Both the position numbers and the translations under genes were made by a program. This document shows, piece after piece, positions 3,894 to 11,425 of a stretch of 50,701 nt of DNA (position 1 is its first letter; each line of letters starts with the position of its first letter). This stretch comes from Verrucomicrobiota bacterium (GTDB lineage Bacteria; Verrucomicrobiota; Verrucomicrobiia; Opitutales; UBA2995): positions 1 to 50,701 of the forward strand of contig JAQBYJ010000033.1 in the NCBI GenBank assembly GCA_027622555.1, in the 5' to 3' direction. The notes beneath the pieces are model-generated. The model was not told the DNA's origin and ran no database searches. It was given only the letters and a program-made list of their open reading frames with translations.

Positions 3894-5216
3894 ATGCGCG
3901 ATGCCCAATCATCTTCTATTATCCGTGCTCTCCGTGGAACCTGGCTTAATCCTATTTCGGATGACCAGTGCGATTTTTTCAGTGATGGGATTCTACTGGC
4001 TGAGAAAAAGGAAAATTCCTGGGTTATCATTGAGTTAGGTGATACGGATGAATTGGTTAAAAAATACGGACTCGGGGAGCATCAGATTGAGAAACAGGCG
4101 GGATTATTGATGCCGCCATTTTTCGATATGCACTTTCACTGGGTGCAGGACGATGTGCGTGAAATGCCGAAAACGTCTCTGCTTGAATGGCTGAATAGAT
4201 ACACCTTTCCGCGAGAGGCTGAATTTGCTGACTATGCAATTGCCGAGGAGAAAGCGAAAATCTTTTGGAAACGTATTTTGGCTACCGGAACGATAGGTGG
4301 GCTTTGTTATAGTTCGATTCATCAAGTGGCCCTTGAAGCGGCGATGCGAAATGCGCCCGAGCATTTCAAAATTGGGAACGTCCTCATGACCATGAATTCC
4401 CCCCCGAATTTGACCCAGTCCGACGAGGAGGCTATTCAGCTTACCCAATGGGCGGCGAGCACCTTTGGCCAACGGCATGTCGCCAGTCCGCGATTTGCTC
4501 CAACTACAGGTCCTGAGGTCATAACAGCCTCAGCTGAGGCCGCTGCTTCCATCGAAGGCTATTCCCAGACCCATATGTGTGAAACCCATGAGGAGATCGA
4601 ATGGGTGAAGTCTATTTATCGGGAGTTGCACGGGTTTGAAGATATCGATTACTATATTCAGGTTTATGAACGGACAGGGTTCCTTGGGCCAAAAACCGTT
4701 CTGGGTCATTGTATTCATTTGACGGATGCCGAGTGGAAACTGATGGGGACGACTGATACGGTAATTGCAAGCTGTCCAACTTCGAATGGTCCGTTGGAAG
4801 AACGAGGATTGGGGTCTGGTTTGTTTGATTTTCAAAGAGCGGATGCGGAAAGGGTTCGTTGGGTGCTGGCTACAGATATTGGGGGTGGTCCTTATCTTTC
4901 CATGTTGGACGTGATGGCGTCCTTCGTGCGACAGAATCGCGCAAGTGGTGTAAACTCGGCTACATTCGTTAAGGCCCTGTTTCGATCTACCCAGGCTGGA
5001 GCAGATGTGTTGGGCTTAGGCCATCGAAAAGGGTCATTCAAGTCAGGAAAGGATTTAGATTTTATTGCCGTCAAAGTTCCGACTGATCAAATCCTTGGCA
5101 CATCCGCTGAAGTCGCTTTGGAATCTGCAATTATGCCTTTCGAAGGTTCTCGTGAGAAGTACGAATCCTTGATTTTAAAAACGGTAATCGAAGGAGACAC
5201 GGTGTTCGAATGTTGA
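3894..5216 (+). CDS. guaD: guanine deaminase
   Basis: A 440-residue amidohydrolase that would convert guanine to xanthine and ammonia. The metal-binding FDMHFHW motif is followed by LLEWLNRYTFPREAEF, a very characteristic guanine-deaminase segment. Further family landmarks are SPRFAPTTGPE, the substrate-site THMCETHEEIEWV, GHCIHLTDAEW, ASCPTSN, GSGLFDF and the metal-ligand aspartate in ATDIGGG. It is the first gene of a tightly packed purine operon; its end overlaps the xdhC start by 7 bases. This places xanthine production directly before xanthine oxidation. Confidence 0.9.
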   Translation: MRDAQSSSIIRALRGTWLNPISDDQCDFFSDGILLAEKKENSWVIIELGDTDELVKKYGLGEHQIEKQAGLLMPPFFDMHFHWVQDDVREMPKTSLLEWLNRYTFPREAEFADYAIAEEKAKIFWKRILATGTIGGLCYSSIHQVALEAAMRNAPEHFKIGNVLMTMNSPPNLTQSDEEAIQLTQWAASTFGQRHVASPRFAPTTGPEVITASAEAAASIEGYSQTHMCETHEEIEWVKSIYRELHGFEDIDYYIQVYERTGFLGPKTVLGHCIHLTDAEWKLMGTTDTVIASCPTSNGPLEERGLGSGLFDFQRADAERVRWVLATDIGGGPYLSMLDVMASFVRQNRASGVNSATFVKALFRSTQAGADVLGLGHRKGSFKSGKDLDFIAVKVPTDQILGTSAEVALESAIMPFEGSREKYESLILKTVIEGDTVFEC

Positions 5217-6172
5217 GTTTTTGGAGATCGGTGGCCGGTGAGGTGTTCGAGGGTAGGAGAGTGTTTCTGGCCTTTGTTGTTGGACATCAAAAAGGATCTC
5301 CCGGAACAGAGCAGGCACGTTTGCTTTTTACTGAGGATGGTCGACAACTTGGAACTATAGGAGGCGGTGCTATGGAAGCGCGCCTTCTTAACGATTCTAA
5401 AGTAGCTTTCAAAGAAGGACCCGTAGCTCCTCAACTAACCACTCTGATACATCGTCCATCGAAGGAATCGGCTTCTGGTTTATTTTGTGGCGGTACCCAG
5501 ACGCAAGTTACCCTCATTGTGGATGAGTCTCATAAAACTATCGTTGGTGAAATCCTGGAACGGCTTGAGTTGGGTAAATCCGGGACGGTGGTTTTTACTT
5601 CCAAAGGTATCTCACTCCGAGAGGAGGAATTGGAAAATCCTGCTGTGGGATTTGATAGGCCGGATGCTCGTTGGTCTGCATGGGTAGGATTATTCAATCG
5701 CCGTAGAATTCTCATTGTAGGTTGCGGTCATTGTGGAGCGGCTTTGGCCCGACAGATGGATTTGCTCGGTTTTCATGTGACCGTTGTGGATCCGCGGAAG
5801 GATCTATTTACTCAAAATGCTTTGCCGGCTGAAATTGTTATTGAAATTTGTGACTATGCGGGCGCTGCTGCTTTAATGGCGGTCAAGCATGCGATATTGA
5901 CCTTCGCAATTGTGATGACACCCTCTTTTATTGACGACGTTGCTGCCTTGGCCGGTTTGCTGACAAAGCCGTTTCCTTTTATAGGCGTTATGGGAAGTCC
6001 TGCAAAAATAAAAAAGATCCAAGATGAACTTCGTATCCGGAATTTCGGAGATGAGAGTTGGAGCCGAATTACCGCTCCAGTTGGGCTATCTATTGGCAGC
6101 GATACTCCTGAGGAAATTGCAGTGAGTGTTGCGGCGCAAATTCTGCAGAAATTAAACCAAGCGAGTTTTTAA
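5210..6172 (+). CDS. xdhC: XdhC/CoxI-family molybdenum cofactor insertion protein
   Basis: A 320-residue accessory factor that binds molybdenum cofactor, promotes its sulfuration and loads it into xanthine dehydrogenase. The N-terminal XdhC/CoxI domain shows GGGAMEARLL and FCGGTQTQVTL. The C-terminal Rossmann-like domain shows ILIVGCGHCGAALARQMD, then FHVTVVDPRKD and FIGVMGSPAKI. The start overlaps guaD, and the stop overlaps the xdhA start in TAATG, so translation is probably coupled. Many operons put xdhC after the structural genes; here it comes before them. Confidence 0.9.
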   Translation: MLSFWRSVAGEVFEGRRVFLAFVVGHQKGSPGTEQARLLFTEDGRQLGTIGGGAMEARLLNDSKVAFKEGPVAPQLTTLIHRPSKESASGLFCGGTQTQVTLIVDESHKTIVGEILERLELGKSGTVVFTSKGISLREEELENPAVGFDRPDARWSAWVGLFNRRRILIVGCGHCGAALARQMDLLGFHVTVVDPRKDLFTQNALPAEIVIEICDYAGAAALMAVKHAILTFAIVMTPSFIDDVAALAGLLTKPFPFIGVMGSPAKIKKIQDELRIRNFGDESWSRITAPVGLSIGSDTPEEIAVSVAAQILQKLNQASF

Positions 6173-7617
6173 TGAGTCTTAAAACTTCTATTCGATTTAT
6201 CCTGAACAATCGCGAATTCGTGGCCCTGGAATCTCCAGGTCGATTAGCTCTCGATTATTTGCGAAATTCGGAGCGACTTACCGGGACCAAAGAAGGGTGT
6301 AAAGAAGGTGATTGCGGAGCTTGTACGGTATTGATGGGGAGTTTGGAGAATGGAATTGTCCGTTATGTGCCAATGACCTCTTGCCTTATCCCCATGGGGG
6401 AGGTCGTGGGAAAACATTTAGTTACTATTGAAGGGCTTAACCTTGAAACGCTTTCTCATGTCCAGGAGGCCATGGTTGATACGGGTGGAACGCAGTGTGG
6501 TTACTGCACGCCTGGGTTTGTTGTGGCGATCACTGGATGGCTAATGGATAAAAACCGTCCCCTTAATTCAAAAGGTGCGAAAGAAGCCATTTCAGGGAAT
6601 TTATGTCGTTGCACGGGTTACCGTTCCATCAAGGAAGCCGGTGAGCAAGTGATTGAAAAACTTTCTTCTAAATTGTCGGGTGAAAATAGGATTTCCGAAC
6701 TTTGCGAAAACGGTGCTCTTCCGGCCTATTTCGAAACCATTCCTGCTCGATTGGCCAAACTTCAATTACCGGATTTTCCAAATAATGAAGGCGAAGGTGG
6801 GTGTCCGTTGATGATTGCCGGTGGCACTGATCTTTACGTGCAACGTGGGGAAGATATTCCGGATCAGAGTGTCATGCTTCTGAATATAAGCTCCCCCATC
6901 AATCCTATTAAGGAAGAAAACGGAAAGGTTGTGGTAGACGCTCGGATGTCTTTCCAGGAATTTGGAGATGATCCCTTGATTCAAGCTGCGATTCCTGATA
7001 TCCAGGCTTACAATGAGTTGATTGCCAGCTGGCCGATTCGGACTCGTGCGACTTTGGGTGGTAATATCTGCAATGCTTCGCCCATCGCAGACATGACGTG
7101 TTTGCTACTTGCGTTGAACGCGGACTTGCATCTCGAAAGCGAAGAAGAATCCAGGAGTGTTGCACTGAAAGATTTTTTCTTAGGCTACAAGCAATTGGCG
7201 AAGAAAGATGAGGAAATGGTTCGATCAGTTTCTTTTCTTAAAGCTGGTGTCCATACGAAAATCAATTGGGAAAAAGTTTCCAAGCGGGCGGTTTTAGATA
7301 TTGCCACGGTGAATTCGGCAGCCCGTTTTGAAATGGGAGAGAATGGGGTAATTACAGACGCTCATCTCGCGCTGGGTGGGGTTGCTGCTATTCCGCTTTA
7401 TCTTTCTAAAGCGAGTCAGCTTTTACGGAATCAACTTTTGACTGCTGATCTCGCCCTGGCAGCGATAGGCATCGCCCAAACAGAATTTACCCCTATTAGT
7501 GATGTAAGGGGATCAGCGGATTATAAACGCTTATTAGCACGACAGCTGTTGTTGGCCCATTTTTTAAAATGTTTTCCTGAAGTAGTTAGTGAGGAGGTGG
7601 TTTATGCGGCATTGTGA
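6172..7617 (+). CDS. xdhA: xanthine dehydrogenase small subunit ([2Fe-2S] and FAD domains)
   Basis: A 481-residue redox subunit that passes electrons from the molybdenum subunit through two [2Fe-2S] clusters to FAD. The N-terminal ferredoxin-like domain has ligands C43, C48, C51 and C71 (GCKEGDCGAC...SC). The second cluster domain has TQCGYCTPG and NLCRCTGYR. The FAD-binding domain follows, with IAGGTDLYVQ and TRATLGGNICNASPIAD. The fused FeS-FAD arrangement is that of two-subunit bacterial XdhAB enzymes. It overlaps the xdhB start by 14 bases. Confidence 0.92.
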   Translation: MSLKTSIRFILNNREFVALESPGRLALDYLRNSERLTGTKEGCKEGDCGACTVLMGSLENGIVRYVPMTSCLIPMGEVVGKHLVTIEGLNLETLSHVQEAMVDTGGTQCGYCTPGFVVAITGWLMDKNRPLNSKGAKEAISGNLCRCTGYRSIKEAGEQVIEKLSSKLSGENRISELCENGALPAYFETIPARLAKLQLPDFPNNEGEGGCPLMIAGGTDLYVQRGEDIPDQSVMLLNISSPINPIKEENGKVVVDARMSFQEFGDDPLIQAAIPDIQAYNELIASWPIRTRATLGGNICNASPIADMTCLLLALNADLHLESEEESRSVALKDFFLGYKQLAKKDEEMVRSVSFLKAGVHTKINWEKVSKRAVLDIATVNSAARFEMGENGVITDAHLALGGVAAIPLYLSKASQLLRNQLLTADLALAAIGIAQTEFTPISDVRGSADYKRLLARQLLLAHFLKCFPEVVSEEVVYAAL

Positions 7618-9889
7618 TAGTGAGTTGCATGTAACGGGTCGCTCGGAATACACGGACGATGTTGCTCCGCCTCATGGTTTATTGCATGGAGTTGTCTTCG
7701 GTTCTCCGATTGCTCATGGAAATATCCAAAAGCTGGATACGACAGCTGCCTTGGCTATGGAAGGCGTGCGAGGTGTCTATAGTTACGATGATATCCCTGC
7801 CACAAAGATCATTGGTGCCGTCGTTGCAGACGAACCTCTTTTTGCGCATGATAAGGTTATGTATATTGGTCATCCGTTAGCATTGATCGTTGCAGATACG
7901 GTTGAGAATGCGCGTAAGGCCCTGAAGGTATGCAAGGTGAAAATTGATCCATTACCTGTGACGGTTTGTCCGAGGGAGGCCTATGCCACTGGAGAGCTTC
8001 ATCAACCAGTGCGCGTGTTTCAAAAAGGAGATGTCGATGCTGTCTGGGATCAGTGCGATTTTGTTGTCGAAGGCAAGGTGGACCTGGCTGGACAGGATCA
8101 CCTTTATCTTGAAACGAACCGGGCTCGATCGGTGCCTGGTGAAGATGGCCTGGTGAAAGTCTATTCATCGACTCAAAGTCCATCCGCAGCGCAAAAATGG
8201 GTTGCGGCCGTCCTCGGCATTCCCATGCACAAGGTAGAGATTGATGTGAAACGTCTTGGTGGTGGCTTCGGCGGCAAAGAAGATCAAGCGACTCATTGGG
8301 CCTGTATGGCTTCGATCGCTGCAGTGGCATTGAATACTCCCGTGCAAATTGTTCTTAACCGCGTTGAGGATATGAGAATGACGGGGAAGCGTCATCCCTA
8401 CAAACAGGATTTCAAAATGGGATTAACCAAAGACGGCAAAATTCTGGCTTTGGATCTGGCTCACTACCAAAATTCTGGTGCATACGTGGATCTTTCGCCT
8501 CCGGTTTTGGAACGAACGGTCCTCCATTCGACGAATTGTTACGCGATTCCTAATGTGAAGATTTTGGCGGCTGCGTGTCGAACCCACTTGGTGCCTAATA
8601 CTGCTTTCCGTGGATTTGGTGGACCACAGGGAATGTTTCCAACGGAGGCAGCTATTTACAAAGCGGCAATCGTGATGGGTGTTACTCCAGAGTGGATTCA
8701 AGCGAAGAATCTCATTGAGGACGGGTATCAGTTTCACTATGGTCAGGTGGTTGAGGCGTCTACCATGAAGCGTACTTGGCTTGAGGCTACGGAGTTATTC
8801 GATCTTGAGGGAATGAAACAACGAATAGCTAGTTATAATGATTCCCATCGCGGTTCGAAAAAAGGCTATGCGGTCATGCCAGTGTGCTTTGGTATCAGTT
8901 TTACGAAGACATTTTTGAATCAAGGCAGTAGTTTAGTGCATGTCTACACGGACGGTTCGGTCAGTGTGACGACAGGTGGTATCGAAATGGGGCAGGGCGT
9001 AAGTTCCAACATGATTGCCATTGTTTCGCGATTATTCGGCATCAGCCATAAGCGTGTTCGATGTAATAGTACCAACACAAGTCGTATTGCGAATATTTCT
9101 CCCAGTGCCGCCAGCGCAACTTCAGACCTTAATGGTAATGCGACCATTCTGGCCTGCGAAGAAATATTGGTTGGACTAAAAGACGTGGCGGCAAAGGAGC
9201 TGGGCGGGGAACCTGACGATATCTCAATCCAGGACGGTTTGGTTTACCTCAAAGGGGAAGCGTCGAAATTGGATTGGGATCAACTCGTGCTGAAAACTTA
9301 TTTTGCCCGGGTTAAGCTTATGGCTCATGGGTTTTACACACCACCTGGCCTGCATTACGATTTCACAAAGGATAATAACCACCCTTTCCATTATTATACC
9401 TATGGAACCTGCTATATTGAATCGACCGTGGATTGCCTCCGTGGGACCTACACGATTGACTCTGCCAAGTTGGTCCATGATCTCGGGCGAGGAATTATTC
9501 GTTCGGTTGATCTTGGTCAGATTGAGGGTGGGTTGGCTCAAGGAATAGGTTGGGTCACGCTTGAGGAACTAGCCTTCAATGATGAGGGACGATTGCTTTC
9601 GCACGCCTTGTCAACTTACAAGGCGCCGGACGGAGATTTTCTTCCAGACGATATTCAAGTTAAGTTTTTGGAAAATGCTGACAATCCTGGTGGCCCGTTA
9701 GGAAGTAAGGCGGTAGGCGAGCCTCCGTTCATGTATGGAATTGCTGCCTATTTCGCTCTTCAACGAGCAATTGATGCGTTTAAAATTAAAATTTCCGATG
9801 AAGTAATTTCTCCTATGACACCGGAGCGGGTTCTTTTGTCACTGTATGACAAAGATAATATTCATCTAAAACAACCGACATCTGTTTAA
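7604..9889 (+). CDS. xdhB: xanthine dehydrogenase molybdenum-binding large subunit
   Basis: The catalytic subunit that hydroxylates hypoxanthine and xanthine to urate at the molybdopterin site. I chose the ATG at 7604 because GAGGAGG lies six bases upstream; the GTG at 7589 is less likely. Motifs include GRSEYTDD, QDHLYLETNRA, the cofactor loop GGGFGGKE, AFRGFGGPQG (with the arginine that orients purines in xanthine dehydrogenases), EMGQGVSSNM and GSKAVGEPP (catalytic glutamate). About 761 residues, normal for the family. These residues and the guaD/puuD context favour purines over CO or nicotinate as substrate. Confidence 0.92.
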   Translation: MRHCDSELHVTGRSEYTDDVAPPHGLLHGVVFGSPIAHGNIQKLDTTAALAMEGVRGVYSYDDIPATKIIGAVVADEPLFAHDKVMYIGHPLALIVADTVENARKALKVCKVKIDPLPVTVCPREAYATGELHQPVRVFQKGDVDAVWDQCDFVVEGKVDLAGQDHLYLETNRARSVPGEDGLVKVYSSTQSPSAAQKWVAAVLGIPMHKVEIDVKRLGGGFGGKEDQATHWACMASIAAVALNTPVQIVLNRVEDMRMTGKRHPYKQDFKMGLTKDGKILALDLAHYQNSGAYVDLSPPVLERTVLHSTNCYAIPNVKILAAACRTHLVPNTAFRGFGGPQGMFPTEAAIYKAAIVMGVTPEWIQAKNLIEDGYQFHYGQVVEASTMKRTWLEATELFDLEGMKQRIASYNDSHRGSKKGYAVMPVCFGISFTKTFLNQGSSLVHVYTDGSVSVTTGGIEMGQGVSSNMIAIVSRLFGISHKRVRCNSTNTSRIANISPSAASATSDLNGNATILACEEILVGLKDVAAKELGGEPDDISIQDGLVYLKGEASKLDWDQLVLKTYFARVKLMAHGFYTPPGLHYDFTKDNNHPFHYYTYGTCYIESTVDCLRGTYTIDSAKLVHDLGRGIIRSVDLGQIEGGLAQGIGWVTLEELAFNDEGRLLSHALSTYKAPDGDFLPDDIQVKFLENADNPGGPLGSKAVGEPPFMYGIAAYFALQRAIDAFKIKISDEVISPMTPERVLLSLYDKDNIHLKQPTSV

Positions 9890-9927
9890 TGAGTTTGCTG
9901 AAATTTATTCATGTTTCGCAGGTCAAA

Positions 9928-10173
9928 TGTAGGAGCCACCTTGGTGGCGAAATCGGAAAATCGTCAAACGTTCGGGTCGCGAGCAAGCTTGCTCCTACGC
10001 AACATTTATTGATTGGTTTACTTTCTAATGTAGGAGCTGCTTTAGCTGCGATTAGCAACGTCATTAAATCGCAGCTGAAGCAGCTACTCCTACATTTCTA
10101 TAGAGGCGTTGGCGCATCTCAGTCGTGTATTACAGCTTTAATGAAATCGCGGCATTAAGCCGCTCCTACAAAT
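9928..10173. repeat. cluster of five REP-like palindromes
   Basis: Five copies of a short palindrome with GTAGGAGC at one end and GCGA/GCGATT at the other lie between xdhB and puuD: forward at ~9928-9955, reverse at ~9973-10000, forward at ~10029-10056, reverse at ~10066-10095 and reverse at ~10144-10173. Each has complementary inner arms that differ in sequence (GCCACC/GGTGGC, GAGCAAGC/GCTTGCTC, GCTGC/GCAGC, GCGGC/GCCGC). Arm covariation with a fixed GTAGGAGC head is typical of REP/BIME elements. Forward-reverse pairs could fold into larger stem-loops in the transcript. Confidence 0.8.
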
Positions 10174-10198
10174 CATGTACCAATTCGCTAACTAAACT

Positions 10199-11425
10199 AT
10201 GGAAGCCGGTCTGATTGAATTTTTTAATATCGTTTTTCGATTTATCCATATTGTAGCTGCGATTATGTGGATAGGTAATTCCCTCCTTTTTACCTGGATG
10301 GAAATTAACCTGCTTGAAGGGAAAGAAGACGAGGAATCCTTGGGGTATCTGAACATGCTTCATGGAGGAGGAATCTTTCATTTGCAGAAGCGTGTAATCA
10401 AGCCGGATGAAATTCCTGCCCGCTTGCACATATTTAAATGGCAGTCTTATACCACCTGGATCAGCGGATTTATTCTTCTGGTATCGGTTTTCTACACACG
10501 CGGTGGGACTTTACTGCTCGACCCATCGAAATCGGATCTGCCATCCTACATGGGTTGGGTAATAAGTCTTGGTTCTCTGATTCTGGGATGGTTTATTTAT
10601 GACCTTTTGTGGCGGAGCCCCATTGGGAACTATGCGTGGCTTGGACTGTTGATAACATTTGCCGCCATTTTATTTTATGCTTCCTGGTTGGAGACGGTTT
10701 TTAATGGGCGGGCAGTTTATCTGCAAATGGGGGCGATGATGGGCACTTGGATGAGTGCCAATGTTCGTTTCCATATCATAGTAAATCAGGACAAGATGAT
10801 GGCTGCACTGCGTGATGGAAAACCACACGATCTGAAGACCGGCAAGCAGGCCAAGATTCGATCCTGGCACAACCACTATATTACTTTTCCTGTTATATTC
10901 CTAATGCTGAGTGCTCACTTCCCATCGACCTATGGGAGTGAGAGAAATATTGCTATAGCTGCCGTTGTGATTGTCTGCCTCATAATCATCAAACACATGA
11001 TGAACAGTTACCAGACGATTGTTCGTTGGAAGGAGATCATCTACGCCACCTTCATCGCTGGAACTGCCTCCGTCTATGGCTTGATGACGGTACCCCCGAT
11101 TTTCGGTGACCCGGTTGAAATCGTTCAATTGAGTCCTGAAGCCGAGGCTGGTAAACAATTTTTCAGTGCGATGGGTTGCCAGGCCTGCCATTTGCCTCAG
11201 GCAGGAACCATTGCACCCAGTCTCCATGGACTGATAGGCAGTGAGCGCGAATTTGTAGATGGAACGAAACTTATAGCCGACGAAGCCTACATTCGAGATT
11301 CGATCATGAACTCTACGGCTAAGGTAGTTAAAGGTTTTGCGCCAACAATGCCTCCCTACGCCAGTGTCATTCAGGAAGAGCAATTGAATCAACTAGTGGC
11401 GTATATTCTATCGCTAAGTGAGTGA
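10199..11425 (+). CDS. puuD: membrane-bound urate oxidase with C-terminal cytochrome c domain (PuuD family)
   Basis: A 408-residue protein of the PuuD type, which oxidises urate to 5-hydroxyisourate and passes electrons to its own cytochrome c domain. The N-terminal ~300 residues have about eight hydrophobic segments, with histidines in FRFIHIVAAIMWIGNSL, MLHGGGIFH and SWHNHYITFPV. The C-terminal domain has a haem-c site C327-Q-A-C330-H331 and a candidate axial methionine in PTMPPY (Met384). It follows xdhB after the REP cluster and takes the product of that enzyme. Unlike soluble uricase it should need no O2 as direct co-substrate and make no H2O2. Confidence 0.88.
   Translation: MEAGLIEFFNIVFRFIHIVAAIMWIGNSLLFTWMEINLLEGKEDEESLGYLNMLHGGGIFHLQKRVIKPDEIPARLHIFKWQSYTTWISGFILLVSVFYTRGGTLLLDPSKSDLPSYMGWVISLGSLILGWFIYDLLWRSPIGNYAWLGLLITFAAILFYASWLETVFNGRAVYLQMGAMMGTWMSANVRFHIIVNQDKMMAALRDGKPHDLKTGKQAKIRSWHNHYITFPVIFLMLSAHFPSTYGSERNIAIAAVVIVCLIIIKHMMNSYQTIVRWKEIIYATFIAGTASVYGLMTVPPIFGDPVEIVQLSPEAEAGKQFFSAMGCQACHLPQAGTIAPSLHGLIGSEREFVDGTKLIADEAYIRDSIMNSTAKVVKGFAPTMPPYASVIQEEQLNQLVAYILSLSE

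Follow-up and report, generated by a model that had tools for sequence, protein, structure and literature searches.

The DNA analyzed here (the window, 50,701 nucleotides) is one whole contig (JAQBYJ010000033.1, C33 among the contigs of this genome) of the draft genome GCA_027622555.1 of a Verrucomicrobiota bacterium in the order Opitutales. The genome is 6.0 Mb in size and 95.8% complete, and the same-genus relatives of the organism include ‘Opitutales bacterium UBA2995’. Five open reading frames (ORFs) of a purine degradation cluster, guaD, xdhC, xdhA, xdhB, and puuD, follow one another on the plus strand, exactly as a first-pass annotation made from the letters alone had placed them. Our main subject is the last of these, which encodes a predicted membrane-bound urate oxidase (PuuD) whose C-terminal cytochrome c domain is not of the type described for this family. 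The features are listed below.

3894..5216, plus strand: guaD, guanine deaminase-like amidohydrolase, 440 residues
5210..6172, plus strand: xdhC, molybdenum cofactor loading factor, 320 residues
6172..7617, plus strand: xdhA, iron-sulfur (FeS) and flavin subunit (FeS/FAD) of xanthine dehydrogenase, 481 residues
7604..9889, plus strand: xdhB, molybdopterin subunit of xanthine dehydrogenase
9890..10198, no strand: gap filled with repetitive extragenic palindromic (REP) repeats, ~2.5 GTAG-tagged inverted pairs (9928-9998, 10029-10093, and 10147-10170)
10199..11425, plus strand: puuD, Urate_ox_N plus cytochrome c
10199..11056, plus strand: membrane urate oxidase domain of puuD, residues 1 to ~286, eight helices
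11129..11425, plus strand: C-terminal cytochrome c domain of puuD, caa3/COX2-like (“type B”), with C327-x-x-C330-H331 and M384

PuuD is known as a membrane-bound cytochrome c urate oxidase (COG3748/DUF989, Pfam Urate_ox_N), in which eight helices make up the membrane domain and a cytochrome c follows at the C terminus (Doniselli et al. 2015, PMC4562309). In Agrobacterium, deletion of puuD abolishes urate degradation and a soluble uricase restores it; there was no rise in catalase, and the electrons were proposed to pass to cytochrome c (PMC4562309). The window protein shares with this system the eight-helix membrane domain, a haem c with CxxCH and Met, and a purine-catabolic context. It matches Urate_ox_N over its full length (profile positions 3-281 of 295; 4.9e-85, 286 bits against a cut-off of 26.9), and eight helices appear both in the family alignment and, as long helices within residues 3-297, in a low-confidence AlphaFold model, from which a Foldseek search found no fold relative of the membrane domain. 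Identity to proteobacterial PuuD over this domain is ~31-39%. Across 32 homologs that include all three tail types defined below, 28 residues are invariant, among them H17, H55, H240, R14, R171, and R221.

The haem ligands C327, C330, and H331 and the distal ligand M384 are all present in the tail, which matches Pfam Cytochrom_C at 2.8e-8. The fusion of cytochrome c to urate oxidase that the first-pass annotation reported is thus upheld, but the noncanonical type of the cytochrome had gone unnoticed. We refer to the canonical PuuD tail as type A, to that of the window as type B, and to proteins lacking the cytochrome as type C. The canonical tail was described as having two Cys, a His, a Met 41 residues on, and an invariant Arg398 (PMC4562309). 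The spacing between CxxCH and Met is 53 in 12 of 12 type B sequences, not 41 as in 16 of 18 type A sequences (a naive motif count, in which the other two give 46 and 49, the latter probably a miscount). The Arg that follows the Met is conserved in type A and absent from type B, and Arg398, which was reported as an invariant residue rather than as one that defines the family, is missing from the window protein.

Profile comparisons separate the two tails further. None of the three canonical tails tested (Sinorhizobium, Vibrio, and Azospirillum) matches any Pfam cytochrome model at 1e-3, no type B sequence scores above 7.4 bits (E 4) with the type A profile, and a profile-profile alignment of A with B yields a probability of 24% over 28 columns around Met-Pro. 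The type B profile matches no canonical PuuD, and it scores 90 bits on coxB of Paraburkholderia (L042) and 63-82 bits on cytochromes of the window's own genome. Against the PDB, type B retrieves 1w2l, the cytochrome domain of caa3 oxidase subunit II, at 1.9e-26 with the profile and 3.9e-15 with the single sequence, and the type A profile retrieves nothing below 0.3. With the AlphaFold model, itself of low confidence overall, 1w2l is also the only Foldseek hit below 0.001 (9.8e-5; template modeling score 0.80 to the target). By sequence and predicted fold, then, the nearest cytochrome c type is the COX2 domain of caa3 oxidases, and homology to the tail of characterized PuuD was not recovered in these comparisons; unlike caa3 subunit II, however, the window domain is joined to a urate oxidase membrane domain rather than to COX2. 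The architecture is not an assembly artifact, because it recurs in 12 sequences including those of the isolates Roseibacillus persicicus KCTC 12988 and Pelagicoccus sp. SDUM812002. We found no description of such a cytochrome replacement in the literature searched, whose coverage is incomplete.

A match to the membrane domain occurs in 21 of 387 sampled genomes of the phylum, in 20 of them above the curated cut-off. Type A is carried by order-mates of the window genome in one family (f13) and by three further families (f30, f50, and f75), and type B by the window genus, Pelagicoccus and relatives, Roseibacillus, and Akkermansiaceae; the genome-wide scan for relatives reaches close relatives only and does not set the range of type B outside Verrucomicrobiota. 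Two genomes of another family, f54, encode type C, in which the membrane domain, of full length at 269 residues, lacks any cytochrome (L063:9561-10370 and L064:9477-10286); one of these two genes adjoins a gene for adenosine deaminase. In a maximum-likelihood tree built from the membrane domain alone, type B forms one clade (100/99) that is sister to the type A sequences of f50 (93/91), and the long branch of type C joins the tree elsewhere. When long-branch sequences are dropped, B, f50, and f75 form one clade (100/99) and B is still sister to f50 (93/92).

Within type B, Roseibacillus, which belongs to another order, stands beside the window genus (96/94 and 96/96 in the two trees). Its puuD (L005:10001-11203) is 67% identical to that of the window, compared with 55% for Pelagicoccus, and no other pathway gene was found within 10 kb on either side of it. 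Together, this position, the identity, and the lack of nearby pathway genes suggest transfer of puuD between orders.

The explanation that we consider probable is that the PuuD membrane domain was inherited from the known family, that a caa3/COX2-like domain took the place of its cytochrome c in a single event within a verrucomicrobial lineage, and that the rest of the pathway is encoded elsewhere in the genome (see below). The replacement appears to be new and is well supported by sequence and phylogeny. Provided that the tree is rooted anywhere but on the branch to B, its simplest reading is that the canonical tail is the older one and was replaced once. Several points weigh against this explanation. 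The direction from A to B presupposes a root elsewhere than on that very branch; both tail types keep CxxCH and the Met ligand; the tails are only ~80-95 residues long, which makes it hard to rule out entirely that they share a very remote ancestor; and the AlphaFold model is poor (pLDDT, the predicted local distance difference test, of 62). In addition, the immediate donor domain is not pinned down, because the COX2 beside the aa3-type oxidase of this genome lacks such a cytochrome domain and the best own-genome relatives sit in other multidomain proteins. Derivation of the tail from that COX2 is excluded for the same reason. Three own-genome proteins (L034:140-1906, L035:61-1797, and L036:835-1788) carry cytochrome c domains that are 37-46% identical to the PuuD tail and fused to other domains; these domains are possible tail donors.

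Of the alternatives, the one that survives best, although we regard it as doubtful, accepts that the tails differ and holds that the locus is a plain, known purine operon in which the difference is functionally neutral. Every enzyme does come from a known family, and shuffling of cytochrome c domains among proteins is common. The tail type is nevertheless uniform in the 12 sequences, which come from several families, and the conserved Arg that has been suggested to serve in partner docking is lost in type B; a change of partner is thus plausible but unproven.

Two independent fusions, in which a cytochrome-less ancestor resembling the f54 proteins was joined once to an A tail and once to a B tail, seem unlikely. 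Type C does exist, at full length and with the 28 residues that are also invariant in A and B, as such a scenario would have it. However, B branches inside A with f50 and f75 (100/99), so that loss of a tail would be needed before the second fusion, and type C lies on its long branch elsewhere. It is also quite improbable that there was no exchange at all and that the canonical tail diverged strongly within Verrucomicrobiota. This would account for the CxxCH and Met-Pro ligand motif and the helix found at the same protein position in both tails, and for the 28 aligned columns around Met-Pro. The present data weigh heavily against it: type B lies far nearer to unrelated cytochromes (the 90 bits on coxB) than to the type A tail (7 bits), the membrane domains next to the tails can be aligned from end to end, the ligand spacing differs, and the canonical tail persists in f50 and f75, the sister lineages within Verrucomicrobiota. 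Finally, that PuuD is no urate oxidase at all, acting instead on another purine-pathway intermediate or as the cytochrome partner of xanthine dehydrogenase, could be argued from its position directly after xdhB, from an activity assigned by sequence, and from its modest identity to proteobacterial PuuD, but it is very unlikely given the 286-bit Urate_ox_N match and given that the genome also encodes the enzymes for the urate oxidase product, HiuH and UraD, whose genes share the cluster in several relatives.

Pfam and NCBIfam agree with the identities given to all five genes in the first-pass annotation. GuaD matches Amidohydro_1 (1.6e-26) and, as one of its two best family matches, TIGR02967 (guan_deamin; 1.2e-76), although at 258 bits against an equivalog cut-off of 375; its top PDB matches are guanine deaminases (best 6ohb, 6.8e-52), and it has the metal-ligand motifs DMHFH, THMCETH, GHCIH, and ATDIGG. 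XdhC matches Pfam XdhC_C (2.7e-32) and XdhC_CoxI, and its two best NCBIfam matches are XdhC_rel_AOR (144.6 bits, cut-off 350) and TIGR02964 xdhC (97.9 bits, cut-off 162). XdhA scores 339.6 bits on TIGR02963 (2.6e-101), under the equivalog cut-off of 467, and retains all eight FeS cysteines (C43, C48, C51, and C71; C109, C112, C145, and C147). XdhB likewise scores 733 bits on TIGR02965 (3.8e-220), under its equivalog cut-off of 849.5. Such sub-cut-off scores are expected for a divergent phylum.

Carbon monoxide (CO) dehydrogenase models reach just 162-214 bits on XdhB in NCBIfam, and in the PDB comparison it scores 529 bits with human xanthine oxidoreductase, 406 with aldehyde oxidase, and 143-148 with CO dehydrogenase, its best matches being the xanthine oxidoreductases 2ckj, 1fo4, and 1jro. 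Residues E231, R341, and E711 (numbered from the GTG start), in GGGFGGKE, NTAFRGFGG, and KAVGEPP, are what we take to be the active-site Glu, Arg, and Glu of xanthine dehydrogenase. Profile scores and active-site residues, rather than a tree, thus speak against a CO or aldehyde dehydrogenase and support the large subunit as that of a xanthine dehydrogenase. Overall, the proteins correspond to the two-subunit bacterial XdhAB with XdhC in domain order, FeS cysteines, catalytic Glu/Arg/Glu motifs, and maturation factor, and differ from it in scoring under the NCBIfam equivalog cut-offs.

The first four genes overlap at their ends, as had been noted: guaD and xdhC by 7 nucleotides, xdhC and xdhA by 1 (TAATG), and xdhA and xdhB by 14, if xdhB is counted from the ATG at 7604, just 5′ of which lies GAGGAGG (the GTG at 7589 is a possible alternative start). 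At the start of the contig, an ORF at 61-741 resembles, as judged by eye only, the end of an IS110-type transposase.

Between xdhB and puuD lies a gap of 309 nucleotides, the RNA of which is predicted to fold at -109.5 kcal/mol (z = -5.9 versus shuffles). The REP motif in it has 42 copies genome-wide, with none for the reversed control. GTAG-tagged REP repeats are known, and the verrucomicrobium O. terrae is reported to be rich in them (PMC3733652); those described there are likewise GTAG-ended palindromes in head-to-head pairs within gene gaps. What differs here is their siting between xdhB and puuD, with GTAG-tagged palindromes in this gap in four of four genus members. Within the genus the gap varies from ~120 nucleotides (L004 and L029) through the 309 of the window to ~500 (L011); it is ~30-80 nucleotides in L006-L009 and L067. 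Because REP hairpins occupy the gap, co-transcription of xdhB and puuD is uncertain. Given its strong predicted fold, the gap may tune or separate puuD expression. Promoter and terminator scans gave nothing beyond chance level.

L006, L007, L008, L009, L029, and L067 share the gene order guaD-xdhC-xdhA-xdhB-puuD, and so do L004/L030 and L011 as far as contigs allow. With this order recurring at no fewer than eight further loci from Opitutales and their relatives, the cluster is not a chance arrangement; it is itself ordinary, already understood biology. In Pelagicoccus and relatives (L007, L008, and L067), guaD, xdhC, xdhA, xdhB, puuD, uraD, hiuH, and allB all lie within 20 kb, so that the arrangement in the window genome is a dispersed one.

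The enzymes that act after urate oxidation are absent from the window, as the first-pass annotation stated, but they are not missing from the genome. A whole-genome search found hiuH, uraD, and allB, the three genes for which that annotation had proposed one, on contig C9, where hiuH and uraD are adjacent in the run nucleosidase, 541-residue putative permease, xanthine permease, uraD, hiuH, and allantoinase (allB). On contig C75 (L028:3930-5444), a two-repeat allantoicase is directly followed by ureidoglycolate lyase. With all five enzymes present, a pathway that stops at hydroxyisourate is ruled out; as judged from its gene content, the genome encodes the route from guanine to glyoxylate and urea, over the window cluster and these two others. 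The 541-residue protein (L014:12020-13645), a putative multipass transporter, draws no significant match from Pfam or NCBIfam, nor does its sequence find a relative in the PDB; its homologs occur near guaD or puuD in L004, L008, and L067.

It should be noted that no urease alpha subunit was found in the genome (urea amidolyase was not searched for), and no allantoate or hydantoin amidohydrolase scored above cut-off. Urea may thus be an end product. The earlier suggestion that purines serve as a nitrogen source is weakened: with a pathway ending in urea and no urease found, only the amino group of guanine would be freed as ammonia, barring another urea-using enzyme.

The window cluster is predicted to convert guanine to xanthine, urate, and 5-hydroxyisourate. 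The PuuD membrane domain most likely oxidizes urate at the cytoplasmic face, from where electrons would go to the periplasmic haem c and then be handed to the respiratory chain. The genome has heme-copper oxidases of aa3 and cbb3 type (as typed by gene neighborhood), which could accept them. The replaced domain would then give the electrons another exit, one that fits another partner. The 2015 description of PuuD left undecided whether the cytochrome feeds the respiratory chain or scavenges superoxide, and what its docking partner is (PMC4562309). That one haem domain was exchanged for another and not lost favors an electron-transfer role over that of a scavenger; this argument is qualified by type C, in which the membrane domain exists without a fused haem.

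The natural replacement of the tail and the cytochrome-free type C offer comparisons able to separate the respiratory and superoxide-scavenging ideas, and the 28 invariant residues narrow down the site of urate oxidation. Tentatively, a lineage of Verrucomicrobiota may have redirected urate oxidation toward another partner in the respiratory chain by taking up an oxidase-type cytochrome, in which case PuuD would be a modular enzyme, with the membrane domain as the catalyst and the cytochrome as no more than an interchangeable electron outlet.

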